Source of the DNA: Owenia fusiformis
Lineage: Eukaryota > Annelida > Polychaeta > Sabellida > Oweniidae
Assembly (NCBI GenBank): GCA_903813345.2
Contig: CAIIXF020000009.1
Location: 16,085,759-16,149,758 of the forward strand
DNA: 64,000 nucleotides
Reading direction: 5' to 3'
The notes under the pieces are model-generated. The model searched no databases. It was not told the origin of the DNA and was given only the letters and a program-made list of their open reading frames with translations. Position numbers and translations under genes: made by a program. Below are positions 3,497 to 33,400 of the stretch, one piece after another (the first letter of the stretch is position 1; every line of letters starts with the position of its first letter).

Positions 3497-6400
3497 GTAA
3501 TAACTTAAGAAAATTTTTAGTATCATTGGAATTTTAGTTTACTCTTTACCTTCAGCATGCTGACTTATTTTGGCCATTTTATCGCAAGTGACTGACTTAT
3601 TTTTATTTAAATGATATACTTGACATATGATAAATATCTCCATAACTACTGAATGAATCTTGATTAAATTTACATAAGAGGAAGATACATTGTCTGTTAC
3701 TGTGATCATGTATATTCAATTTATTTTTTAATAAATAAACAAAACTGTGCATACTATACTATGAATACTCCTCCGGAAACCACCACTACACACCTGGGAA
3801 GACTCAACGTCTGGTCAGAATCCAAAACTGCAGCGATCTAATGTTCAACTTTTCATTTGAAATATTCTAATTTCTATTGTCAATGTCCATTATCAGCTTC
3901 ACAAAGCCTGAAGATCTCAAAATCACAGTCCATTAATCCTTCACATTTTCATTATCCCAACAAACGAAGTTCAGTAGGGATAGAGTCCATTCGTCCATCC
4001 AGGAGATAACTCTTAATACGGACAGATTTGCTTCAAAATTGGTGGAAGGATATATATTGGTGAATAGTTTTACGCAAACATTTTTTCAAGATGGCAACTG
4101 GCTACTTTAGAAATGGTGGGAAAATTTTGCGAAAAATCTTTAGTTTTTCATTTTAAAGCAAAGAAATGAATATTATTGTTTGAAATTTTGATAGTATTCA
4201 CCTTTCCCCAGAGTCAGCTCATGAATATTAAAATTAGCAAACCTGAAATCTCTGACGTCAGAGTAGGGCAGATTTTCGCCTGAAAATCTTAACACATTAG
4301 ATGTCAATGTGAATCGTAAAGGGAATGGGTTAATTTTACTGTCAAATTATGTTGAGTATTAATAATATTAATGATAAATGGAATGGAATTCAATTATAAT
4401 TATACTCACGTCTATATTCCCCCTTCTTTATTTATATTGTTCTGGGGAATTAAATGAATAGAGACATATTGATGTGAAGAGTCCAATGTTTCCTGTACAT
4501 TTTCAAATTACGCCGACTGTACAAAACCCCATGTTTAGTTCTTGACTGTCAAAATGTCAACATCCCATGGTAATCTTAAGTTTGTGTAATATTTCAAATG
4601 GGGTGAAGAAGGCTTAACCTTGAATTAGAAAAAGTATTCGACTCTCAAATCTGGGCCAACGGTGCATTACTTTCACTTACGTTCAGCCACCTGTTATACC
4701 ACATGACAATGTAACTTTTTATGTCTGCCGAAGAATTTGACAAAGGTTACGTGAGTGATGACTAGTGAGTGATGATGAGGCCGTTCATGTATGCTTTGAG
4801 ACATTGTACCAGAGTTGCTTGTTTTACACACGATTGTCTATTTGAAGAGACTTATATCTTGAAAGGCCCATGGGCGTTCTTTTAAATATTGAACTTTTTA
4901 GAGAACTTTCAGGATAATTAGATATGAGTTCTATGTAGTTCTATCCAAAAATAGTAAGTATTCGGTTTGCCCAAGCCCAAGTTAATTTGTTTTGGTAATT
5001 TCTATAAAGTCTATCATTACTTATTACATTAAGCATGCTGAAGATATTGAGAAAAGTAATATGTTTTCTCTGCCATGAAATAATAGTTGATTGAAATACA
5101 TTTAGATCGAGAGAATCGAGTGAAATTAAGCGAGAAAAATCCCAAACTTCCAAAAGATGATGTCTTTGGATCTTTGATAATATTACTCTTCAATCACATT
5201 GGGACGGACGTCTGATAGCATTAATTCTGGGCCAATTTCGCCTGCTAGAACATTCAAGTAACGATTTTTAGGATCTAAGAGAATTGACTTTATCAACATT
5301 TGATAGGAGGTATTACCAGATCTTACTCGGTGGTAGGTTGGTTGTATGTAGCCGGGTAGACTTTACGCGCATGTAATCGAAAAGTAATAAAATGTTTTTT
5401 TGATATTTCATATGTTAATATATTCAAGAATGAGACAATCATTTGGCAATACATTTATGGTGACCATTTTGAGATATGAGTTCTATGTTGTATGACTCTC
5501 ATCATGTGAATCATCATTATCATGATTAGCATGAGTGAGTACAACATCATTATGAATGTGTGGGTGCATCATCATCACTATTAGCATGTTTGAGTAAAAG
5601 CATGTGTACCTCAATATTATTGGTTTGTGTGAGTGTATGTATTTTAAAGACACTGTCAAATGTTACATTTATAACGCATTTATTATATATTTCAGATCAA
5701 TCAGAAAGCCCCAAATGCCAGCTGCATTGACCTTCTGCAACAATTGATAGACCCAAATAAGGTAAATAGTAAAATATAAAATTGTTGCATATAATAGCAA
5801 TAATAACAAGACATTTAAGATTGCAAGCAATCTCATGGAGGCCCTCAAGCATTTTAGGAAACTTAATTTGAAGGTCCAAAGGTCAAATCTCAATGTTGAG
5901 GGCAGACATAAACTTCTGAGGTGATTTCAAAATCAAGTAAAGGTGTGAGGTTCCATATCCATTCACCAAAAGGTATGACCCCGCGATGGTCCATTTAAAA
6001 ACTTGTGATTTTGTTCTAAATAACACCATAGTTGGCTTCTAGGGTACCTAGTATGCCATTATTTGGTAACAAAATATAGAGGAGGAGTTCAACTTTCATT
6101 TTGATTACGAAAATAGCGATGTAGGTCAAAATAGTTCCAACATGAGCATGTTTACTACGCGTGTGACCGTCATCTCAGAATTGACCAGATGGTATCAAAC
6201 GCGAGTTACAATAAATGCGTATCATAGTTGGTTATGAACGCCATATGTGCAAAGTAGTGTTAAGAATTTTCGAATTTCCTATTGGATTACGGTACATAAA
6301 CCTTAATGTAAGGCCTAAAATTGTCTGCTACTTGGCCAGAGACCAATATTCTAGTAGAATTTGAAAGCAGGGTCGATATTCTTAGTCAGCTTAGGCCACG

Positions 6401-15400: not shown

Positions 15401-18400
15401 TGCTATTTGATGATGTCTGGGCACTTTAAAAGTGACTCTGAGATAATACATGAAATTCATTTTTTTTTTCAATTGTTTTGTGGGGGCTGTGATGGGTGAC
15501 CAACTCTCCTAGAAAATCTTACAATTTTAAGATGATATTTGGTGCTTTCTGGGCACATTTAAAGTGTATGAGTCAATAAAAAAATGAACAACAATCACTT
15601 TTTTTGTTAATTTTGGGGGTGTCAAAGGGGGGGGTGCCAAAAGGGGAGGTAGGGTTGGGATTTCAGAGGGGGAGCAAGTGTTTGTCCCCCATATCTGTCC
15701 AGATCCCTAGAAACATTGACCATATGTGATATATTTGATGAAGTTTGGGCACCTACAATGTGTCTGAGACGATACATGAAATAAGTTCAGAATTTTTGTC
15801 AATTGTTTTGTGGGGGATGTGAGGGGTGGCCTACTTCCTAAGAAAATTTTATACAATTTTAAGATGCTATTTGGTGCTTTCTGGGCACTTTTAAAGTGTA
15901 TGAGTCAATAAAAAAGATTAAATCATTTTTTCTATTTTTTGGGGTGGGGTGTCCAAGGGGGGGGGGGGTGCCCGAGGGGGAGGTGGGTGAGGATGCCAGA
16001 GGGGGAGCAAGTGTTAGTCCCCCAGAAACATTGACTAATCAAGGAGCTATTTGATGATGTCTGGGCAATACAATACATAAAATAAATTCAGAACTTTCAA
16101 TTGTTCTGTGGGGGTGTGAGGGGTGGCCCACTCCCCCTAGAAAATTTGGCAATTTTAAGATGCTTTCTGGGCACTTTCAAAGTGTATGAGTCAATGGAAA
16201 AAAATTTCCCAAAATATTTTTTGGTGGGTGTCAGAGGGGGGTCCCACCCATCGACCCCCAACCCCTCCCCCCATGTGACGGCCATGTACATGCTTAGCAA
16301 TCATAGCAAAATGATCTTAATTTTGGAATTTCGTTTCGAGAGCTAGTAATGCTTGCTACGTGTCTTCATCATATGTGTTCATAAGACTTCATGCATGCTC
16401 AAGACATAATCATTACCTGATTGTATTTATAAAATAACTTCGCCCATGCGCTTTATAGAATTTAGAATTAGAATTAAGAATTTATTAAGGCACGGCCACT
16501 GTGTTATCAGGGCATGGCCAGACTACAATTATACAAACTACATTTATACAGTTACATTTATACAGTCACATTAATCTACAAAGATATTGTGTTGGAATGG
16601 TTGCGATGTCATATATTTCTTTTCTTAAACACATGTCAATGAAATGCAGGACTTCCTCCATGTTTGATTTGTATGACATAATGTATTCACTTTTCCCCAA
16701 AGTCCAAAGTGTACTCATTTGACCGCTGCGCTGATTGGTCGATGAAAATCAATGACGTCAAAGCAGGGCAAATTTCGCGCCAAAACTTCAATTACTATTA
16801 GATCCCCGAATGAGTGAAATAGATCTCATTATAAAATGATAACAAAACTAAGTGAAATATATTTTTCTGACTATTTTGCCTTAACCTTAGTCTTAAATAC
16901 ACCATCCGGTAAATCAAACCATAGAAATAATTGTGATAAGAGTGCTAGTCTTTTAACAAAGTGAATCCAATTACGCAAACCAAAGATTGACAATCATTCG
17001 AACAATAACTATACTGTACGTATGGATTAGGAATAAACATTTATTCAATTAAATGGTTCATTATGTTTCTAATAAAAAAAATATGGAGAACAGTTTTAAA
17101 TGTCAGGTCGTCAACTTGCATTTTTCTCATCGGTTTGCCCCTTGGCCAAAAATTCTTTTAAAATAATGCAGTTTTTCACCATTCTGAGCACTTTTCGCAT
17201 GATTTTTTGCCAAAACTGTCCAAAAGCTCCCCCTTGATAGAACCGCCCCGGCGAAAAAGCATGGAATAATTCCTGATTATTCGTGAATTATTCATCAATA
17301 TTCATGTAAAATATTCATGAATAATCCACCAATGAAGAATAATTATTCATGAACTATTCATGAATATGCGTGATCATCAATTTGGACACTTCCCCAAAAT
17401 TCTTCAAAACTGAATTACTGGAATATTCATGAATAAACTTTCAAGGACCCGTGAAGAATAAACAAGAACAAAAAAGAAAGAAATATCAAGGAATTTTTGA
17501 AGAATAAACATGAATTTATATTCCTTTTTATTCTTCACATTCTGATTCAGCAAAAATCATGAATTCTTCAAGCATATGCTTGAACATCAATTTGGATATT
17601 CTTCATTATTCTTCAAAATCCTTCTATGTTCATCATTTATTACTCATTTTTCATCATATGATAACTAGCACACCTGCCATGAATTATTCAAGAATAAAGA
17701 TGAATAAAAATTTTAATTGTCGTGGAATTTTATAAGAATAAAGAAGGAGAAATTTTTATGAATCTTTAAGAATACACAAGAATGAGCATTCATGATTTTT
17801 GACGAATAAACAAGAATTAATATTCTTCTTTATTCTTCAAATTTCTAGTAAGCAAATTCATGAATTATTCAAGCATATGCTTGAACATCAATTTGGACAT
17901 TCTTCATTATTCTTCACAATCCTTCTATGTTCATCATTTATTCCCCAAATTTTCATCATATGATAACTTGCTCACCTGCCATGAATTATTAAAGAATAAA
18001 GATGAATAGAAATCCTGATTATCAGGAATTTTTTAAGAATAAAGAAGGAGAAATCTTTATGAATCTTTAAGAATACACAAGAATAAACGTTCATGATTTT
18101 TGACGAATAAACAAGAATTAATATTCTTCTTTATTCTTCAAATTTCTAGTAAGCAAATTCATGAATTATTCAAGCATATGCTTGAACATCAATTTGGACA
18201 TTCTTCATTATTCTTCACAATCCTTCTATATTCATCATTTATTCCCCAAATTTTCATCATATGATAACTTGCTCACCTGCCATGAATTATTGAAGAATAA
18301 AGATGAATAGAAATCCTGATTATCAGGAATTTTTTAAGAATAAAGAAGGAGAAATCTTTATGAATCTTTAAGAATACACAAGAATAAACATTCATGATTT

Positions 18401-21400
18401 TTACGAATAAACAAGAATTAATATTCTTCTTTATTCTTCAAATTTCTAGTAAGCAAATTCATGAATTATTCAAGCATATGCTTGAACATCAATTTGGACA
18501 TTCTTCATTATTCTTCACAAACCTTCTATGTTCATCATTTATTCCCCAAATTTTCATCATATGATTACTTGCTCACCTGCCATGAATTATTAAAGAATAA
18601 AGATGAATAGATTATCAGAATTTTTTAAGAATAAAGAAGGAAAAATCGTCATGAATCTCTAAGAATAAACAAGAATAAACATTCTCGTTTTTGAAGAATA
18701 TATATTAATAAATATTCTTCTTTATTCTTCAAATTTCTAGGAAGCAAATTCAAGAATTATTCAAGCATATGCTTGGACATCAATTTTGATATTCTTCAAT
18801 ATTCTTCACAATCCCTCTATGTTCATGATTTATTCCTCAATTTTCATCATATGATAACTTGACACTTTCCATGAATTATTCAAGAATAAAGATCCTTATT
18901 ATCAGGGATTTCTTAAGAATAAATGAGAAATCTTCATGAATAAACATTCATGTTTTTGATGAATAAACAAGAATTAATATTCTTCTTTATTCTTCAAATT
19001 TCTAATCAAATTGATGAATTATTCAAGCATATGCTTGAAAACTAATTCTTAAATATTCATCGGTAATTCTTCAATTTTCAAACTTCCAGTCACTATTGAG
19101 TTCCCAAGAATAAAGATGAATAAACATTCAGGATTATTATTATCACTTTAGAATAATGAAGAATAAATTCTTCATGAATAAACAAGGATTCCTTTATGAT
19201 TTTTAAGAATGAAAATATTTTAAAGAATAAATGATAAAAACTTACCTCATTTCTTTTTACTGAGTTATTCATGTATATGCATCATGGGTAGTAATCAGAA
19301 AATGCTTCATTATGCATCACCTCAATTTTTTATCTGATGTTTGCACTTTCCCTGAGTTTCTCAAGAATAAATATGAATAAAGAATAAACAATTCAATTGA
19401 AGTTACATAGAACTGCTTTATATTATTCTTAACAAATACTGTCAAACTACAAAATGAGTGTCCTTCTACAGGAAAGTTACAAAGTTACAAATACAAGTGT
19501 CTTGTCAAGTTGCAAATACAAGTGTCTTACGCATCTACATTCTATTTTTTAAGCGTAATGCCTTTTGAATGTTAGCAATTTTTTCCTTCGTAATTTTTGG
19601 AGAAGTCTTACAATGTCTTTCCACTAAAGTTAGCACTCTGTTAACATTAGTCTGGTCTAGTGGGGGTCTAGAGCTCTCTGAACGACTTGATTTTTTCCCG
19701 GTGACACTATGGAGTATCAACTCTTCTTCTGTGAAAAAATAGCTTACCAGCTTTTTTGTCACTGAACGGACATCACTTGCTGGTAGATGCTTAATAACAT
19801 CATAAGCAATGTCATTTTCGTCCATATGCATTGCTTTTCTTATTTCAGCAACTTGGTTCTCGAGGTCCTTTACTCTCCTCTTTAGGCTTCTAATAGTTCT
19901 AGCAGACCTATATTGAAATAAATTGGAGACATTCAAAATCACAGGTATTTTTTCATACTTTTTTCTGAAAGGTAAACATGGTCATGCAGGGGTTTCAATA
20001 AATATGTTTTCAACAGGCTTTTTTGGCGATTTCAATAGGCTGGAACTTATTTCACCAAAATTGCTAAGGACAATGAATTTTTTTCTCAATATTTGAACAG
20101 GCATACTTGTGATTTTTTGCCGTCTGCCTGACTCATTATGAAAAGGCCAGAGGGATTAAAGAAGTAGTTTAAGTAAACCTCTTTCAGTAACTAGTAATTT
20201 ATGCTTGAGTTAACAACGTGAAATAAATAGGTAAAAATTATCTTACTTGTTCCCAGAGTTTGGGGGATTTTCTTCTTCCAAGTCTTTCAATGAATGCTCA
20301 TCTTGGTTGGTTTTAATTTTTTCCCTTGATGCCTTTGCAGATCTGTTATAAATAAATTGGTGGCATATTTAAAATCTGAGGCATATTTTAATTTTATACT
20401 TTATTTCTGAAAGGTGAAACATGGTCATGCAGGAGTTTCAATAAATATGTTTTTAATAGACCTTTTGGCAATTTTAATAGGATTTCACTAAAATTGGTAA
20501 TTTCTCAAAATTTGAACAGGCTTAATTGTGATTTGAAATGGTTTTTTGCCATCTGCCTTTGACTCATGGTCAAAATGGCAGAGGGAATTCTTTGAAGTAT
20601 GGTAGTTAACTTAAAGGGGCAATAAGGCTTGTAGAGAGAAAATAGGAAAATTTCAACTTTTTCTGAGCTATCAAGGCAACATTTGGCTTAACATCTTCTT
20701 TGACATACCTATTTTCTTAAAATGTATGGATAAACTATCAATTTCAGCATTAAGAAGTGTAAATTCAGTTCAAAGCTAAATGGGACGTCCACTTTTATAT
20801 TTTTAAGATCCACCATGTTTCAAGAGGAATATCAGCTGAAATAATGTTTATCTAGAGACTAGCGGGTTTCATTGTAGATAATAAAAATAGATGTTAGTCT
20901 TGATGAAGTATCCAAACTTAAATATATTTTGACACTGGTCCATGATCGTTAAATAGCCCCTCTGCACTAATTGTTGCACCTAAATTATGCTTGACTTAAC
21001 AACATGAAATAAATAGGTAAAAATTATCTTACGTGTTCTCAGAGGCTGAGGCATTTTCAGAGGCTGAGGCATTTTCTGGCGAACTAGCCATATCATCTGT
21101 GTCACTCGATGAATGCTCATCTGTCATGTCTGTCTCCCTGTCCCCGGCATCTTCAATGCAACCACCTCGGTTGCGTGCGATGTTACCCCAATATGCCTTG
21201 ATTAGACATATAATCTCATCTTGGGTTAAATTCTCATCAATGTACTTATCTGTCTTTTTGGCAGCTTGTACAAGCTCTGCATCGGACAATGATGCTAAAA
21301 TAATAAGAGAAATTTCTCAGTCTAAAACTCAATCAGTCTCTAACTATAATGTTAGCCTGTAAGCGCAAGTCTTCAGTGATCAAAATAGAATAAAATCAAC

Positions 21401-24400
21401 AACCCCAAAATTTTACGGGTGACAAAGTTTTTCATCCGTCAAAATAACCTACCTGTCAATATTTCGACAGATTAAAATTAGTTCCCTTCGAATGATGACC
21501 TGCAGGCCCTTAGCCAGGATTTGCCAAGGGGGGGTTCACTTTTCAGAAAAATTCCAGGGGGGTTCACGTTGACAAAGTTGACCCAAAATCACATGAAAAT
21601 GCTCAGAATGGTGATGCATGATTTTGAAAGAATGTTTGGCCAGGGGGGGGTCCGAACCGAATCGACCCCCCCCCCTGGCTACGGGCCTGACCAAAAGGTC
21701 AAAAGTCAATCACACGAGTCGCAACTGACAGAGAGAGAAAAGTTGTTGGGCCAAATGTGTTACAGGGCCTCAATTAATGTGCCTTTATGTCATTAAAAGG
21801 CCTTTAAGGGCCTCATTTTTAAAGAAACTGACCCTAAATTTTCAAAATTTTGAATTCTAACAGTCTTGCTTACCTCCGATCCCCAAGCAAATAGCGTCGT
21901 GTTCTTTAGCTTTCTTTCCAGCACCAAATCTACAAACGACAAATTCACCTAGTTCTGGGCATGTTCCTTTAGATCTATTGACAAGATTCCTGGCAGGCTC
22001 GATACTTTGTGTAAAATCTTCCACCCAAAGTAGCAATAAATAGTCTGTTTTCTCCGCCATCTTCTTCGAAAATTCGCGCGTCTGAAGATTGACGTAATGA
22101 AATATTAACCAATCAGCAGCAATGATGCTGTACCCAGGATGCATCGGGGAAGTGAAAGAAAATGGCAAAATTTACTCTGTGATTTTGTATCGGATTTGTT
22201 AAATATTATTATTGATGTGCATACAAACGTAAATGTTATCCTATTTTCGGTATAAATACGTACAAAACTACAGTATAATAAGAGTAAAACAGTCTGATTT
22301 ATGGAATTTACATTAAAAGTAAAGGCGCGACGGTGTAATTTCGTTTAGTTGAGGTTTCAATTTAGACAGATTAACTACTTCCGGCAAATCCGTAAAAACA
22401 ATTTTAGATCAATATTTTGATTAAAAATAACAAATCAGGTTAGTAAATTCAATCTATTTCCATGCATAGATGCCGGCAAGATTATTTTTTAGAAGGATAG
22501 CTCAATATTATATTATTCAGATGGGACGGTCCCCTCGAAAAAAATCAAATTTAAAATTTACGTCAACGATCACGAGTCGGGGGGGGGGGTGCCGCTGAGA
22601 CTCAAAATATCTACCCACATCTTGGGATTTTGTTCTCTAAAAATGAACCCGGTTTTCTTTCAAAAATAGACCCACTTCAAGGTAATTTTTAAAACACAAG
22701 ACCCACTTCCGGCGATTTTTTTCAAAAACAATACCCAGTTTTAGGATTTTTCCAAAAATAGACCCATCTCTAGGGATTTTTTCCCAGATTTTTTTTATCA
22801 AAATGAAACCTCAATCTAGGGTTTTTTCTTCAAAATGGGACCCACACCTAGGGATTTGGCGAAAGAGTGACCCATTTTAGTGGCACGTCCCCATATATTA
22901 CTCGAGTCTCTAGCTTACAGCTAGATGTAACTTGATTGATTTCGTATGTTTTCCTGAAAAAATGTCATACACGCACCTTGAACTCATTTTTAATAGTTTC
23001 TATAAATATTTATAAGAATATTAATCATATTGATGTAGAAGCTTTGCTTGTCTGAATTTAGATATTTCAAAATTTCTTTTCGGAAAAACATTCAAACTCA
23101 ATGGATCCGCCATTTATACACCTCAGTGACCTCATTCGCAGAAAAATGGTGGCCATTTTAAAATGAAATTTCGTTTTGCGAAATTAAATGCTAAATACAC
23201 TCGATTAAGACGGGGATATGAGCTGATTTTCTGCAAATGTATGCATAAAGGTATGTTTCATATAATAATGACGAAACAACTGTGCGTGGTCACCATGCAT
23301 TGGCAAATATTGAATACCACAGCTGCTGTAACAGTGGCTCAAAGCCAGATCATAGAGAAGGCTTTGGAACTAAGTAACCCATATAGATCTAGCCAATATA
23401 TGGGGGTTGGTTTATATCCTTTCTTTGAGGTGCTTTAATGTCACCTAGGTGGTCTCTAGTGCTGGTTTTGTCTCTTGTACATTTAGTTTTGCGATTAGCT
23501 ACTCTTGTGGTTTGTAGAGTCCTTTTTTGTTTTATATAAAATCCTGTACAGGTTGGCTAAGATCATATTCATAACTGCGATTGTTATTCACATTGTCGTG
23601 CAGCCATTTCAAAAAAATATGAGACATCTCATATCAAATCATATCTCATTCGAAGCGTCTTGTTATTCTTTAACTTTCTTATCACTAACGAATCGTATAC
23701 AAACAATTAGACAAAATAGTGATATATATTCAATATTGGTGGAAGGCTGTCCAAATCTGAATGTGCTTCTGTGATCCGAGAAATGTGAAGTCAGCATTAC
23801 AATTATATTTGAATACACAGGATCCCAGAACAAGATTCGGTGTCTCATCTTGAGGAATATTTATTGAGCTTCTGATCCCTACTACAAAAGAATTTTGCTG
23901 GCATCTATGTTTCCATGTACGTTTTTACTGAAAATACATGTCGCATTTCTAAATTGACTTTTTCCTAGAAATTCAAAATTTTGAACCTTAGTCTACAGCA
24001 CATACAGGGAACAGATAGTACACTGACTGAAATTCTCTGTTCTCTCTGTACCCAGTAGGTAAATTTTGTTCGGTGTACTAAAACTATCTGTTCCCAGGCC
24101 TATGGTCTACACAGCCCTAAAGGCTAGAGTTGGAGGAAATGTAAGTTGGTAGTCGACTTTTTGTGATTTTGATGTCATTTCTGCATTTCACAATCCACAA
24201 TCGTGTGATTCATAATTGAAAATTAACATGTGACTCTATTGAGCGTTGCAACAAAATTCACCCTGACCTTTACACCAGATTCAAATTTGTCCCACTCACT
24301 TTCGATTTATATTTCTCACATGACAAAACAATAATCAAAATCAAAAAAGTAGGAGATATATCTAATTTGGTAAATTTTGTATCAGGATTTCCCATCACAA

Positions 24401-27400
24401 AAAATAATGACTGCAGACTTGCCAACCTAAAATGAAAAATTTGCGTGAGATTTTCAAAAAATTGCGGTACTTTTACATGAGAGTTCTCCAAAATACGGTA
24501 GTTTTTGCGGGAGATTTTTGAAAAAACTAGAGTTTTTTACGCGCGATTTTTGAAAAACTGGAGTTTTTAAGGGAGAGTAGTTTTTAAGTAAATTTTATAA
24601 AAAGTGGTAGTTTTTGCGGGAGATTTTTGAAAAAACGGAAGGTTTTGCGGAGGATTTTTTAAAATACAGGAGTTTTGCGGGAGATTTTTGAAAAACGGGT
24701 GTTTTTGTGGGAGATTTTAAAAACGGCGATTTTTATGGGAGATTTTTGAAAAAAGGGAGTTTTTACGGGAGAGTTTTGATAAAACAGGAGTTTTCGTGGG
24801 AGAGTTTTGAAAAAACGGCAGTTTATGTGGGAGAGTTTTGAAAAAAACGGCAGTTTTTGCGGGATATGATTTTGAAAATAAACGGAAGTTTTTGTGGTAG
24901 ACTTTTGACAAACGGTAGTTTTTGCGGGAGATTTTTGAAGAAACTGTAGTTGTTGCGGAAGAAAAAATGGGAGGAGCAGATTTTATTATTCTAGAAGCTG
25001 ATTAAACATGCGTAAAATGCATGGGGCGTGCTACCACTGATCATATCAGACTAAATCATGCAAAGTATGCAAACTATAGACTCTAAAAAGTAGTTCTTAT
25101 CATTTCCATCCCGTTTTGAACGATATCGCCGATTCATACATGAATCTGTGACATTAAGGATGCAGTACAGGGTTAGCGTAGCTTACGTTCCAGATATTAG
25201 ATTATGCTCATATTTTTCGCACTGTATCACAATGATGTTATCATTAGCCAAGTGCAATATAAAGAGGACTGACCAGCTGGTTACTACAAGATAAATTATT
25301 TACATTGACGGAATTTTTGAAAAAGATTTCTATGCATTTTTCATTTTCGGGTCACAGTTTCTTCATAAATATTGACTATGTCCAATAGAAACTTCATCTA
25401 CCGACAGAAATATAAACCATCTATATTACGGATCCATAAAAATGATAAATGGCATGCAAACAGTTAAAAATGTATAAACATATATAAAATGTGCAAACAG
25501 ATAAGAAAATTGTTGAAAAAATGAAACGGTCCCCGAGTTTGCAAAATGTAACGCCCAATGCGGAAATCGAACCGAAGACCTTTCGTTCCCAAGAGAGATT
25601 TTAGTAGAAATACGGTACGGGAGTGTTTACGGGAGAAAACGGTACAGGAGTTTTGTTATTTTTTACGGAAAAACAAAAAATTTACGGGAGATTCCCGTAA
25701 AAAAACGGGAGGTTGGCAAGTCTGGACTGCAAACTTACATTTCTGCTGAGAATAGATATATGAGACTGGCGCCAAATTTTGCTCCCCAACTTCTTACTTT
25801 CACTGTGCAGCTTGTGGATTGATTATATACATATCATCATAAAAATTTGTCTTTTTTATTTTGCAGTTAATAGCTTGACTCACCATTTATTATGAATGAA
25901 TGTGAGAATACAAACCAAAACAGTCCAGGTTTCTTGGTTCTGCAGGAAAATGGAAAGAAACAATTTGAGTGCAGGGAATGTAGGCGGACTTTTACAAATA
26001 AAAGAAACATTGAAATGCATCTACATTCAAGTCATGGCTATTGTAAGTTTCCATTTTTGAAGTTCAAAAAGTGGTTTTTGAAGGACTTTTTGTTGGAAAA
26101 TTGTGAATTTGTTTAAAACTAACTTTTAGAGGCCACACGTATCAATCGCCCATATACAAATGCATGTAGCATTCTCACATAAATAGTCATCATAGTAGTC
26201 ATATACTATCAGATACATGAAGATTGATCCACTAGAACTGATGAATATTCAAGTTCAAAAGAACCTTTTTCTATACTTGCTATGGTATCTGACCCGATGT
26301 AGCCACCTTGTGGTGAAATTGGTAACTACCTACTGGCATCTGGGTAATTAAAACTCGATGAATTTTATAATTTATTTTTGAATCCATTTCCCATTGTGGA
26401 GTTAACAAATATATTTTCTTACAGCTTCACCAGTGAAGAAGTATAAATTGTACGAAAACAAACCAGGATTAAAAGAGAATGTACCAAGGAGTACCGTTTG
26501 GTATAGAGCAAATAGGAGTAAATTGGAGAAAGAGCAGGAAGGTAAATAATTTAGATTTATGTAACCTCATCTTTTAAGCTCACATGGGTCACGGGCTTAT
26601 CTACCTTGATCCAATCTTATGTTACTATTGTTTTAGTATAGGATTCCCTAATATATAAATATGCTTATTCGGCAAGTTTGAAAAGTGCAGCCCCTCTCTA
26701 TAGGGAAAACCTCTGAACAAGGAAACTTTCCTCCAGTCTCAAGAGCATTCCCTGTTCGCAGGTTTTACTGTACATATAATTTAATTAAATTGTGCACTTT
26801 TCAGGTACAGATGATCAAGGGCCAGATGGAGAACGTCAAAATGATCAGAAAGATTCACAGGATGACATCACCCCTGAGTATTCAGACAAGGCCTATACAA
26901 TTTCTGAAAAAAGTGAAACCACTAGTATTGAACTTGAGAATTCTATTGCTATTTCATCACTCGTGGGTAATGGTACTGTAGTCCAATCTGTCACTCAATT
27001 ATCAGATTACAATCATGGTGACAAGATTGATGAAAGTTCATCTGCAACTGACTATGTTAATGGTAGCGAGCCATATGGCAAACTTGATATTGACTCAGAC
27101 TCAACATCTATGAACTCGCATTCAGAATTGGACTCTGACGGTTATGAAAATATATTTTCTGACTCTGAATTTGATTCTTATAGTGATTCAAGCATATACA
27201 GTTGTTCATCTGATTCGGAGACTGAACGCACATCCTGTTCAGAAATTGAAAATGACTCACTTGATCTTGACAAAGATATAATTGGCAGTGATGTGTATTT
27301 AAAGATACTGTCATGTTTTATTCGCAATGAACTTTCAGCTACAGCTTGCAAAGATGTGTTACAAACATTTCAGAAACTAACTCCAGAATCTCAGGTTTGG

Positions 27401-30400
27401 AATCAAATATCATATGACAAGATATGGAGCATAGTGGATAATGTTACCAAGCAAATTCATTATTGCCCAGATTGTAGCAGGATATTTCCCGAGGATGACG
27501 TTGACTGTGTGGAATGTCCGTGTGGTGGTCTAAGATATATTGGTACAGCAGAGGAACAGAGAAAAGCTAATCGACAACCATGCAAAAAGTTTGTGTTTCT
27601 TGATCCAAAGAAATACATAAAGGACCTACTTGAGCTACCAGGTAAAGTATTATTGGAATGTTTCAGTTCAATTGAATAATTTGGCATTATTTTCTAAAAT
27701 CCTACTTTTCAAGATGGCCACTGAATTTCAAAATGGCGGCCATTTTCCCTTAAAAAAACGTAATCTTTGATAACTTAAATACCAGTGAACGGATTTGGTT
27801 CAAATTTTATATGATGATGCCTAGGGACAAAGTAGATCTGTTCGAGTAAGAATTTTCAAGATGGCAGCTGAATTTCAAAATGGCGGCCATTTTTCGTAAA
27901 AAAAATAATCTTTGATAACTCAAATACCAGTGAACGGATTTGGTTCAAATTTTATATGCTCATACCTAGGGACACAGTAGCTCTGTTCAAGAAAGAATTT
28001 TCAAAATGGCCACTGAATTTCCAAATGGCTGCCATTTTTATAAAAGAAAGTAATCTTTGATAACTCAATTGCTAATTGACGCACAAGACTGTGGGTCCTT
28101 TATTACATTGTCCTAATTATCTTTTACAGGAACTTATTTTATTTATCTTTTACAGGAATGTGGGATGGCCTACAGAAAAACAAAGGAGTCATACTCGAAC
28201 GCTATGAAACTAGTGATGGGGTACTAAAAGATGTTACAGATGGTGAGGTCTACAGAAACCTAATAAAAACTGGATTTTTATCAAATCCTCACAATATTAG
28301 TGTCATGATGAATACAGATGGTGTTAACCTCTATAAATCAACAGGTGTTGAAATATGGCCGATTTTCCTATCAGTGACTGAACTCCCTCCTGCAGAGAGG
28401 TTTGCTCGTGAAAATATGATCCCAGCTAGTTTATGGCAAGGAAAGGGTAAGCCACCTTTCCAACAGTACATGGAAGTATTCTCATCGGAAATGAACAAAC
28501 TATATACAGAGGGCATAGATATTCATGTAAATCAAGAAATGATAAATGTGAAAGTAGTAGTCATTACATCACCAGCAGACCTACCAGCTAGGGCAAATAT
28601 GATGAACATGACATATTATAACGGCCAGTATGCTTGCACAACTTGTGAAATACCAGGCAAAACTGAAGTACAAGGTGGTGGACACACTAAAGCATTTCCA
28701 GCCCAGCACACCTACAAATACAGAACAGACAAGGAGATTCGCGATTGCATGACAAAAGGCCAAGAGAAAAAAAGAATCCTGGGTTTTAAAGGTAAATCTG
28801 GGCTCTATGATCTGAAAGGAGTGGACTTGAGCAAACTTTGCCCACCCGACTACATGCACTGTGTCTGTATGGGTGTAATCCCAAAAATTAATAAAAGGTG
28901 GTTTTCTTCTGAAAACAGCAATGAAAGTTACCATGTTGGTAAAGAAATAAAAGAAATTTCAAGAAGAATGCAGTATATTAAGCCACCAAACATGATAGAA
29001 AGGTTACCACGAAACCTGGAGAAACATTATTTACACTTCAAGGCAACTGAAAATCAAACATGGATGCTTTTTTATGCAGTACCTTGCCTCGAAGGAATCC
29101 TCCCTAAGAAATACTTGGACCATTTCAAAAAACTCTCTGAAGGCATACACATTTTGCTTGGTGACAGTATAACTACAGAACAAATTAACAGAGCAGAACT
29201 TCTCCTCAAAGAATTCTACGTTGAATACCCCAAGCTATATCCCCCTGGAGACTGTACATTGAACTTGCACTACATTGGAGCCCATTTCGGATATTGGGTC
29301 CAACAATTGGGACCATTGTGGAATTGGAGCTGCTTTCCCTATGAAGATTCAAATGCACATATATTAAAAATGTGCCATGGAACAGGGGATGTAACAACAC
29401 AGATAATGAGGCAAAAAACAGCTGAGATTAAAATAAGGACACAAAATCAACCAGTCAAAATCAAAGAGTTGAATACAACTGAGGAAAAACTTAAAATACA
29501 TGGTAAAACAAGGCCATTATCTGATTCTGATCATGATCTGGACTCTGTGCCTCAGAACTGTACATCAGTGGCTTCACGAATCTCCATAAATGGAGAGATG
29601 TTCTACTCTGATGAGTATGCACGCATGAAGAGGAGAATTTGTAACTGTGTGGAATTAAAAAATGGAAAACGTGGTTTCATTAAGAGGTTTGTTACTGATG
29701 GCAAAGAAACACATTTTGCAGTAATTGATATGCTCAGAGTGCAGAGAGGTTCAACTTATGCAAATAAAGCAAAACCTTCAGGGAAAACAGAGCTGTATCA
29801 CATAAGTGAGCTAAAGAGAAAACTTGTTTTAGTTCAGTGTGGAGAAAATATGCAAATGTATGTTCTAGCAATGCCTAATGGCATTGGACGCTCCGTTTTC
29901 AAATAAAGCATCTGTTCGGGCGATAACTGAAATATTTTCCATTGTGTTCCTTACACCATATTGAACATAATATTCACATGAAATTGACTTTTATAAAGTT
30001 CTTATGCATTGACAATAATCATAATTCTTGAATATTAGAATATTTGTAGAATATTTTCCAGGACTTAGATATTTCACTTTATTCTGAAAAAGCTCTGCAA
30101 GTGTTGCCAGGATGAATATATATTGAATATTAAATACACAGTAAAATAATTTGTATCTTTAATACAAAATAATGTTTTATTTTGAATAAATTCTGTAAGT
30201 GTTCTTAAACCTAGTACATAGCGTTCTTGAACCTAGGTAAATAACAATTTTATGTAATAAAACATACTATAACATACTAGTATGTTGCTGTTGGATTCAA
30301 ATACAATTTCTTACAATATACTTAAATACTTTTTGAACTATAATTCAGAATTCCTGTTATTCTGAAGATAATTCTTGAATTTATATATATATATAATAAT

Positions 30401-33400
30401 AATATGTATAAAAGTCAAAATTCTTAGTGTACATACTAAATATAATAAAATAATTTGAAATAAAAGCAGAGAAATTCTTCCTACATGTTTCTTTATTTAA
30501 ACATCTTTCTTGAAGATTTTTAAATAAAGAAACATGTAGGAAACATGTGGTGAAAAAGTGAAGAATATCTGAGAACATATTTTTTAGTTCTTCATTATTA
30601 TTCAAATATCCTTCAAAGAAGTAGGTGAAAATAAGAAGAATTTCCAAGATTACCAATAATTCAAAATGTTCTTTGTTATTCTTAAGATATTCTTCAAATA
30701 AGCTGGTGAAAAATTGAAGAATATCTAAGAACACATAAGTTCGTCATTATTATTCAAATATCCTTTAAATAACATGGTGAAAATATGAAGGATTTCCAAG
30801 ATTACCAGTAGTACAAAATGTTCTTTATTATTCAACAAATATTCTTCAAATAAGGTGGTGAAAAATTAAAGAATATCTAAGAACATAGAAGTTCTTCACT
30901 ATTATTCAAATATCCTTTAAACAAGGTGGTGAAAATATGAAGAATTTTCAGGATATCGAACAATACAAAATGTTCTTTATTATTCTTCAGATATTCTTCA
31001 AATGAGGTGGTGAAAATGTGAAGAATATCTGAGAACATTGTAGTTCCTCATTATTATTCAAATATCCTTCAAACAAGTTAATGAAAATATAAAGAATCTC
31101 CAAGAATACCATAACTACAAAATGTTCTTCATAATTCTTCAAATATTCTTCAAATGAGGTAATGAAAAATTGAAGAATATCTAAGAACATAGAAGTTCTT
31201 CACTATTATTCAAATATCCTTTAAACAAGGTGGTGAAAATATGAAGAATTTTCAGGATATCCAACAATACAAAATATTCTTTATTATTCTTCGAATATCC
31301 TTCAAATGAAGTGGTGAAAAAATGAAGAATATCTGAGAATATTTTAGTTATTCATTATTATTCTCTCATTCCTTAAACAACATGGTGAAAATATGAAGAA
31401 TTTCCAAGATTTCAAGAAATAGAAAATGTTATTCATTATTATTCAAATATTCTTCATTCAGGGTGGTGAAAATATGAAGTATTTTGAAGAACATGAAACA
31501 TTCTTTATTTTTCTTCAATTATTCACCATAGAATTTGAAGAATATTCAAGAACATAAATTATTCTTTATTATTCTTCAAAAATACAAGAATATGGTTAAA
31601 TCTTTATTCTTCACAATTTATCTCGATATTACAATATTCATCACACCTGAATATTCATGAATAATTCATGAATATTCATATCACAAGAATATCATTTCGC
31701 CGGGGCGCTCCCCAGGTAAATCCTGACTACGGGCTTGAATTGTCGGAGTTTCTCTCTTGTAGGTCTACGTCCAAAAATATCCTGAAAGTTCTCTAAAAAG
31801 TTCAATATTTAAAAGAACGCCCATGGGCTTTTCAAGAGATAAATCTCTTCAAATAGACGATCGTGGGTAATAAAACAAGCAAATCTGGTACATTGTCTCA
31901 AAGGATACATGAACGGCTTTAACATTGTTCAATGAAATAAGTCATCCCTCACGTAACCATTGTCAAATTCTTCGACAGACATAAAAGTAACCTTGTCATG
32001 TGGTATAATAGGTGGCTGAACGTAAGTGAAAGTAATGCACCGTTGGCCCAGATTTGAGAATTGAATACGTTGTCTTCAGGGTTAAGCCGTACCCCCTTCT
32101 TCAACTTAAGATTACCATGGAATGTTGACATTTTGACAGTCAAGAACTAAACATGGGGTTTTGTACAGTCGGCGTAATTTGAAAATGTACAGGAAACATT
32201 GGACTCTTCACATCAATATTTCTCTAATCCTTTGATTTCCCAGAACAATATAAAGAAGGGGGGATATAGACGTGAGTATAATTATTAAATTCCATGACAT
32301 TTATCACAATGATATTATTACTACTTAACATAATTTGACAATAAAAGTAACCCGTTTCCGTCACGATTCACATTGACTTCCAATATGTTAAGATTTTCCC
32401 ACGAAAATCTGCCCTACTCTGACGTCTGAGATTTCAGGTTTGCTAATTATAATCTTCATGAGCTGACTTTGGGGAAAGGTGAATAGGAACTTGTTTTCCT
32501 CAGTCATGCTAGAAAAGTCCTTATTTGACGTTTGAATTTTATCTAATAATATAATGCGCTCACTTTCGTAGATTTTGCATCTCATAACAAAGTGCAGCTC
32601 ATCTTCAACACAATTATCTGAACATATTGTACATATGCATTCATCTACATTTTTATTTTTGTATCTTCCTGCTTCAACCTCTAATGAATTTTATAAGAGT
32701 GCAGAAATTCGTATTTTTAATCAAACCAAATTGGGAACACACAATAACAGTTAGAGAAATCTGCCGATCAACAGAAGCTCACTTCAAAAAATCAAAAGCG
32801 GACTGACGGCGTATTCGACCATTCTGGGATCTTAGATTTTTAGTATAGATAAAGTATTTGGAGATCTTTTGAATGAGGCAATTCTCTAATTCGAAAGACA
32901 ATCGTATCAACTTGAACAAAAGTTGAGTTTTGAAGAAAAATTCTAACATGCGCAGAAGACCCATTTTCGTAATGCCATATTGACTATGTTGAAACTATAA
33001 TCCCTGCGAATTTCATTAAAAACCATGAAAAAATAAAAAAAGTTACGACATCATTGTTTTGCAATAGACTTAAGTGCCAAGACCGTATAAGGCTTTGGGC
33101 TGGCTCAGAATAAATTACATGGTGGCCACTTTTCTCTTCAAAGTGTTGTATTTATTTATCTACTTGTTTTATATTTATCCACAGAAAGCAGGATTCTGAC
33201 TTCAAAGGTGATAAAGGTAAGCTGAAGGAATATGAGAAGATAACTGAACTTGCTGCTACTGATTTATCTTGCCCCTTTGAAGAAAGCAAAGCCATTGCAA
33301 TGTATCCTTTCTAAAAAAAGACTGAACCTACTTACTTATATATTCAATTTCAATTTTCAGTATTATTTAAAGGGCTAATAAGCTCTCAAAATAAGTGTGA

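Follow-up and report, generated by a model that had tools for sequence, protein, structure and literature searches.

A CACTA-related transposon of the annelid Owenia fusiformis that carries a tnp2-type transposase gene and a divergent BEN-domain gene

Structure of the element and its two genes

The window analyzed here is the whole stretch of 64,000 nucleotides from Owenia fusiformis (contig CAIIXF020000009.1, positions 16,085,759 to 16,149,758), and coordinates without a contig name refer to it. A transposon of 14,460 bp occupies positions 17246-31705, with both ends reading CCCCGGCGAAA in a perfect 11-bp inverted repeat. Two divergent multi-exon genes with unbroken frames lie inside it, as an earlier note made from the sequence had described: one on the + strand for a transposase of 951 amino acids (aa) and one on the - strand for a BEN-domain protein of 305 aa. 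The exon borders of both genes were predicted from splice signals. The window element and its close copies are called family 1 below, and a more distant set is called family 2. The features of the element are as follows.

17244-17245, no strand: left copy of the 2-bp target-site duplication CG; CG is also present at the right, and a single CG in 4 of 4 aligned empty sites
17246-17256, + strand: left terminal inverted repeat (TIR) CCCCGGCGAAA; identical terminus in 10 of 10 genomic left-end matches
17257-19395, no strand: AT-rich subterminal region at the left, its inner limit set by eye, holding a 301-bp unit repeated 4.7 times at 17493-18893
19535-19907, - strand: BEN exon 4, with a helical segment, the BEN domain and the stop codon (splice prediction, Pfam)
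20247-20342, - strand: BEN exon 3 (splice prediction)
21033-21294, - strand: BEN exon 2, an acidic and serine-rich linker (splice prediction)
21874-22060, - strand: BEN exon 1, with the start codon (splice prediction)
25892-26042, + strand: transposase exon 1, with the start codon and a single C2H2-like finger (frame; the finger stretch is conserved in family 2)
26425-26541, + strand: transposase exon 2 (frame)
26805-27641, + strand: transposase exon 3, with an acidic region and CxxC pairs seen by eye (frame)
28156-29906, + strand: transposase exon 4, with most of the Transposase_21 domain and the stop codon (Pfam, frame)
30547-31494, no strand: right subterminal array, a 152-bp unit repeated 6.2 times (tandem repeat detection)
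31695-31705, - strand: right TIR, CCCCGGCGAAA on the - strand (end reading and genomic 51-mer matches)
31706-31707, no strand: right copy of the target-site duplication CG (CG on both sides; empty-site alignments)

The genome searched comprised 498 Mb in 525 contigs. When the two host flanks were joined with a single CG, 40 matched places were scored out of 1,728 candidates. One of them is the element-bearing locus itself, and the remaining 39 cross the junction uninterrupted at 80-93% identity. The empty-site junction, in the four of these 39 that were aligned, reads ACCG followed directly by CTCCC, with one CG. Because the empty sites show a single CG, the exact borders and the 2-bp duplication are fixed. 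The mobile unit that the earlier note placed at 17244-31707 is thus real, with true borders at 17246-31705, since the ends given there included the CG duplications; the matching ends it described are the inverted 11-mer at 17246-17256 and 31695-31705. The host flanks (17095-17245 and 31706-31860) are an abundant dispersed repeat that hosts the window copy, and a stretch related to this repeat was seen by eye inside the element near 21500-21690.

The transposase, read from four exons, matches Transposase_21 (PF02992) in Pfam with E=2.8e-15 and 56.6 bits against a cut-off of 28.6, which bears out its description as tnp2-type. Residues D54, D141 and E298 of exon 4, candidates for the catalytic D-D-E triad of an RNase H-like fold, are invariant in three of three sequences, as are 78 further columns. 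The finger of exon 1 scores below the cut-off of zinc-finger Pfam models. DUF1258, of the Mirage group of CMC, reaches 28.3 bits in family 1 and 37.3 in family 2 at a cut-off of 33.1, with Transposase_21 higher in both; among RNase H-like families the two domains fall into one cluster (PMC3985635). No relatives turned up when viral contigs were scanned with the transposase alignment. The last transposase intron is largely filled by a 145-bp tandem repeat of 2.5 copies (27706-28068).

The BEN gene, of four exons, is transcribed away from the transposase gene, and its exon 4 has an alternative splice acceptor at 19964. The protein matches the BEN model PF10523 at E=2.6e-10 and 40.8 bits (cut-off 23.2), so that the BEN-domain partner claimed earlier is upheld. 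One TAA appears in the translated-search matches of BEN exons 2 and 3 in every copy; these matches overrun the exon, within which the frame is open. The closest solved chains by sequence are 4ix7 (RE55538p, E=0.0068), presumably Insv, and BEND6 7yul (E=0.016). To our knowledge, the BEN domain is confined to animals and viruses; within the sequence data, it is this domain, the introns and the genome size that mark the host as an animal. COX1 had no match in the assembly.

An inner insert at 24416-25722 separates the divergent genes, with ends GACTTGCCAACC and GGTTGGCAAGTC and an internal 31-bp minisatellite, and about 8 similar bases flank it by eye. The copies match across this insert, and it therefore travels with the element. 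Outside the transposon, an open frame at 672-1199 resembles by eye the C-terminal part of a non-LTR reverse transcriptase.

Copies in the genome and age of the family

The left 51-mer has 10 exact copies in the genome, and the right 51-mer, searched with up to 3 mismatches, has 15 matches (10 exact, 4 with 1 mismatch and 1 with 3); neither had a match in the reversed-pattern control. Left and right ends pair in the correct orientation into 9 full-length copies. All nine share the ends first reported at 17244/31707, one right end being damaged, and all nine carry the BEN gene, in keeping with the reading of both genes as parts of a single mobile unit. Seven copies measure 14,454-14,460 bp, and two have been enlarged by later insertions to 16,019 and 18,594 bp. 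A tenth left end, at C7:32808690, matches over 1,413 bp only. The ends are undamaged in eight of the nine copies, the ninth having the damaged right end, and a 2-bp duplication is found in 5 of these 8 (CG, TG, AA, TC and CT).

The enlarged copies lie at C1:26120971-26139564 and C9:20332428-20348446. One of them has received about 4.1 kb and the other 1.6 kb at two places; in the 4.1-kb case the BLAST pieces overlap by 9 bp at the joint, as a 9-bp target duplication would give.

The nine copies agree letter for letter in all eight predicted exons of the two genes, which suggests that the system works today or did so very recently. Seven of the nine copies were aligned, the two with large insertions being left out. 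The alignment spans 14,468 columns, with 7 substitution columns and 17 indel columns. Three of the substitution columns belong to the damaged right end of a single copy, and the four internal substitutions are each private to one copy. A single 7-base difference, restricted to the window copy, accounts for seven of the indel columns, and the others fall in an AT repeat or in short runs of one letter. The spread of family 1 looks like a very recent burst, and the window copy is very young; the window element is an intact, probably autonomous cut-and-paste transposon.

Ends and class of the element

Neither family begins with CACTA as plant elements do: the TIR is CCCCGGCGAAA in family 1 and CCTTGGTGAAA in family 2. 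The target duplication is 2 bp (CG in family 1, AT and TA in family 2) rather than the 3 bp of plant elements. The CCC start of animal TRC elements is present in family 1, and family 2 starts with CCTT, sharing only CC. The 2-bp duplication of that animal group occurs in 5 of 8 undamaged family 1 copies, 2 of 2 in family 2 and 1 of 2 non-autonomous elements. Repeat-rich subterminal regions, typical of CACTA/EnSpm elements, are present; the long arrays noted earlier are the 301-bp unit (4.7 copies) at the left and the 152-bp unit (6.2 copies) at the right.

Animal CACTA-related elements were defined by SmTRC1, which combines Transposase_21 with CCC ends and shows a 2-bp duplication in 7 of 14 copies (PMC1636069). 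Because elements of this type have both features, the ends and the duplication of the window element are ordinary for animals. Assignment to the EnSpm/CACTA type, of the animal kind, is thus supported. The earlier remark that the ends are not CACTA was correct, and their being called unusual was not, a CCC start with a 2-bp duplication having been reported in 2006 (PMC1636069).

A second family and non-autonomous relatives

Family 2 is represented at C4 and C12. In translated searches its transposase is 47-48% identical to that of family 1 over the best stretch and 41% over exon 4; it reaches 38.0 bits against Transposase_21, over the cut-off, and an N-terminal zinc-finger stretch is common to both transposases. 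BEN matches, found with the window BEN protein as the query rather than the Pfam model, lie about 5-6 kb from the transposase on the opposite strand, which is the divergent layout of family 1, and the partner protein is 35% identical to the family 1 BEN protein. The two elements measure 10,052 and 9,617 bp, with ends CCTTGGTGAAAAAGAATGGAAT and CCTTGTCGAAA and duplications AT/AT and TA/TA. The left ends of the two families are homologous (CCTTGGTGAAAAAGAATGGAAT in family 2 and CCCCGGCGAAAAAGCATGGAAT in family 1), and a joint left-end pattern occurs at 17 genomic places (control, 0).

The two family 2 copies differ by 34 substitutions in ungapped columns. Nine of these fall in exons, two exons of each gene having been compared, and comprise 8 synonymous substitutions and 1 amino-acid change; the BEN gene alone has 3 and 0. 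This predominance of synonymous changes suggests that the proteins have been under selection recently. A third family 2 copy, at C2:30969501-30978500, has kept the BEN gene and the finger exon, and no catalytic exon was found within that interval. The BEN-like protein of family 2 (L019:3764-4168), placed between BEN and DUF4806 by its scores, is a possible bridge between these two domain families. DUF4806 has been called a subtype of BEN in a zebrafish paper (PMC11075544).

Six right-end matches without a family 1 left end form a related non-autonomous family. Two of the six were extended, giving elements of 3,924 and 3,923 bp that are 99.7% identical, have the left end CCCCGGCGAAATGAATG and show no match to either protein. 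Their duplications are AT/AT in one and CA/CT in the other. These relatives of about 3.92 kb look like elements that may be served in trans.

Pairing of transposase and BEN genes across the genome

Transposase_21 was found at 14 loci over the cut-off, and at 15 with E up to 0.01. A BEN locus lies within 15 kb at 11 of the 14, where the chance per locus is about 0.001. The test used 20 BEN loci, three weak ones being omitted (C3:1248107, C2:10998504 and C3:122131), none of them near an unpaired transposase. The 11 paired loci are nine and two copies of just two families. Another locus, on C2, was considered as a third family and not used for the layout; a transposase of 33% identity shares its strand with BEN there, and a frame that by eye looks pogo-like separates the two. 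Unpaired transposases were also inspected in C3:7953501-7963500 and C10:31229801-31239800, one of them standing beside a gag/protease-like frame (by eye).

Subterminal arrays and a candidate palindrome

The left 2,150 bp of the element contain 26 copies of the motif TGAAGAAT and the right 1,160 bp contain 18, against fewer than 1 per array expected from a first-order Markov model; the intervening 11,150 bp have none. Another motif came to the fore when all 64 palindromes of the form NNN-NN-NNN were ranked by excess over that model. TTCNNGAA ranked first at the left of family 1 (13 sites against 2.1 expected), at the right of family 2 (13 against 0.7) and in the non-autonomous family (64 against 3.1), and third at the right of family 1 and the left of family 2, with 4 sites each. 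The motif is less prominent in the middles of the elements; that of family 1 holds 9 sites in 11,150 bp, outside the top six. The centre of the motif differs, being mostly TTCATGAA in family 1 and TTCTAGAA in family 2.

Seven of ten further BEN loci were then examined for this predefined motif, and TTCNNGAA was the top palindrome at five. Three of these, retrieved before the motif test for other reasons, are the arrays beside BEN genes on C2 (30 sites, 0.6 expected), C3 (18 sites, 1.6 expected) and C10 (13 sites, 0.8 expected); the comparison stretches hold no site in 13.5 kb, 2 sites in 9.5 kb and a single one in 1.8 kb, respectively. The limits of these arrays were chosen after per-kb counts, and 2 kb on C3 (2 sites) and 2.5 kb on C10 (13 sites) between array and comparison stretch were omitted. 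The omitted C10 stretch is an array in its own right; it belongs to a second BEN gene and extends from a terminus at 2728 up to that gene at 4743, and TTCNNGAA is again first there (13 against 1.3). Among the four loci fetched for the motif test, it is first at two (10 against 1.0; 23 against 2.0). A terminus of the form CC..GAAA lies beyond the array at three BEN genes by eye (C12:16773602, C12:9406973 and the second C10 gene). Some arrays share ancestry with the family 1 array, and the test loci are therefore not fully independent; the array of C12:9406973 barely aligns with it.

In the interval C10:31365501-31372500, two distinct BEN genes lie within 2.4 kb of each other; their identity to the BEN gene of the window is about 53% and 36%. 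Each adjoins an TTCNNGAA array, and one array ends in the terminus-like CCCCCAGCGAAA.

Binding sites of known BEN domains offer a comparison. The BEN domain of human NACC1 binds CATG (PMC11472053), which is the centre of TTCATGAA, and that of Insv binds TCCAATTGGA and the variants TCYAATHRGAA (PMC6911014).

Possible role of the BEN protein

The best explanation of these data, and a fairly probable one, is a tnp2 transposon whose BEN partner acts as an obligatory or helper protein binding the transposon ends. The transposase would cut and join at the CCCCGGCGAAA ends with a 2-bp stagger, to judge from the footprints. The subterminal arrays would offer the BEN protein repeated palindromic sites built on the core TTCNNGAA (in this clade mostly TTCATGAA); bound there, it would gather both ends and the transposase into a complex, like maize TnpA for TnpD or the Myb-like protein of Harbinger. 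The TnpA-like role proposed in the earlier note thus gains indirect support from the pairing in family 2 and from the palindrome in arrays beside BEN genes. The sequence itself shows the borders of the element, its target duplication, the copies, both genes, the pairing in two families and the clustering of the motif; that BEN binds this motif, contacts the transposase and is needed for transposition is inferred.

Several observations weigh against this explanation. Matching 2-bp duplications are lacking in 3 of the 8 undamaged copies (TG/TA, TT/CT and AT/TA). The family 2 partner scores only 14.5 bits against BEN, below the cut-off of 23.2, and slightly better against DUF4806, also below the cut-off. 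Three Transposase_21 loci of other lineages (C3:7962796, C3:7824841 and C10:31238999) have no BEN match, and about 9 kb read upstream at two of them contained no BEN, the downstream side not being read; BEN is therefore a feature of this clade, not of all tnp2 elements. The layout is not universal either, since degenerate or odd loci on C2 and C3 have transposase and BEN-related pieces on the same strand. The excess of TGAAGAAT is smaller against a second-order model (3.8 and 2.6 expected, maxima 10 and 7, 26 and 18 observed), and the motif is absent from family 2, so that it was rejected as a general binding site. As for TTCNNGAA, the first-order null model ignores tandem duplication and several arrays share ancestry; the motif ranks fourth in the middle of family 2 (7 against 3.6 expected), and two of the seven test loci failed, with rank five at one (3 against 1.5) and absence at the other (rank 54). 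Structure models were unusable, with a pLDDT (predicted local distance difference test) of 58 for the BEN exon without an alignment and 37 for transposase exon 4 with a three-row alignment.

The main rival makes BEN a regulator of expression or an anti-silencing factor that keeps the arrays unmethylated or open, as VANC does for Arabidopsis VANDAL. The targets of VANC are often tandem repeats that vary considerably among related elements (PMC5735166), and the present pattern is similar, with arrays that differ between families and a short motif that persists. Known BEN proteins are mostly chromatin-related (PMC11472053), and maize TnpA, needed for transposition, also reactivates a methylated promoter (PMC1636069). 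The clusters of TTCNNGAA and TGAAGAAT, however, lie at the element ends and not between the two promoters; the ends are therefore favoured as the target, and end-binding fits somewhat better than regulation. As the sole role of BEN, regulation appears unlikely, though it is the strongest of the alternatives. It is compatible with end-binding rather than exclusive of it, and a VANC-like role may be additional or the real one.

A wider and still more tentative view, for which we would claim a fairly low likelihood, is an ancient animal lineage in which BEN and its own TTCNNGAA arrays co-evolved as a self-made chromatin platform. BEN would then be both a boundary or anti-silencing factor and an end-binding one, and part of the animal BEN/DUF4806 repertoire would derive from such elements, as Myb/MADF from Harbinger.

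It is improbable that BEN is a repressor limiting transposition or copy number. The BEN proteins Insv and ELBA have target-gene repression and insulator activity (PMC6911014), and only 9 full copies were found in 498 Mb, but so low a number is equally explained by youth. Least credible of all, and very hard to sustain, is a passenger host gene captured by one copy and amplified with the transposon: the nine family 1 copies do come from one very recent source, so that their sharing of BEN counts as one event, but a homologous BEN-like gene occupies the corresponding position, equally oriented, in family 2, whose transposase is 41% identical over the catalytic exon and whose ends are different; almost all coding changes in family 2 are synonymous; and three further BEN genes stand beside TTCNNGAA arrays with CC..GAAA termini.

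Comparison with known systems

The class of the element is known, and its BEN partner seems to be new; in literature covered by titles and abstract openings, outside Repbase and most subscription journals, no description of a BEN gene in a CACTA/EnSpm element was found. The same coverage revealed no recognised counterpart of plant TnpA in animal CACTA-like transposons, and a BEN partner with a candidate site makes this question testable.

SmTRC1 and other animal TRC elements share Transposase_21, a CCC TIR, a 2-bp duplication in part of the copies and an internal tandem-repeat region with the window element. An integral SmTRC1 copy is, in contrast, about 4.7 kb long, with one predicted transposase open reading frame and alternatively spliced transcripts that give further frames, and the available part of its description contains no BEN gene (PMC1636069). 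Maize En/Spm resembles the window element in its tnp2-type transposase, its two element-encoded proteins and its repeat-rich subterminal ends. It differs in that the TIR of the window element is not CACTA and the duplication is 2 bp instead of 3. The second protein of En/Spm arises by alternative splicing of one unit (PMC1636069), whereas BEN has a divergent gene of its own.

Outside this superfamily, PIF/Harbinger (Harbinger3_DR) also has a separate transposase and a DNA-binding partner that reads a short subterminal motif (PMC9710019). The transposase there belongs to another superfamily, and the partner is a Myb/SANT/MADF protein, not BEN. VANDAL elements are plant Mutator-like elements, and VANC is not known to be a BEN protein. 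VANDAL21 likewise encodes an extra DNA-binding protein, VANC, with target motifs in tandem repeats that differ between relatives (PMC5735166), but its proven effect is loss of DNA methylation. Closest by sequence among solved chains are BEN proteins of the Insv/BEND6 type, yet these are host transcription and boundary factors, not transposon-borne. Mobile DNA would become a home, and possibly a source, of BEN domains, which are known from chromatin factors of hosts and from viral proteins.

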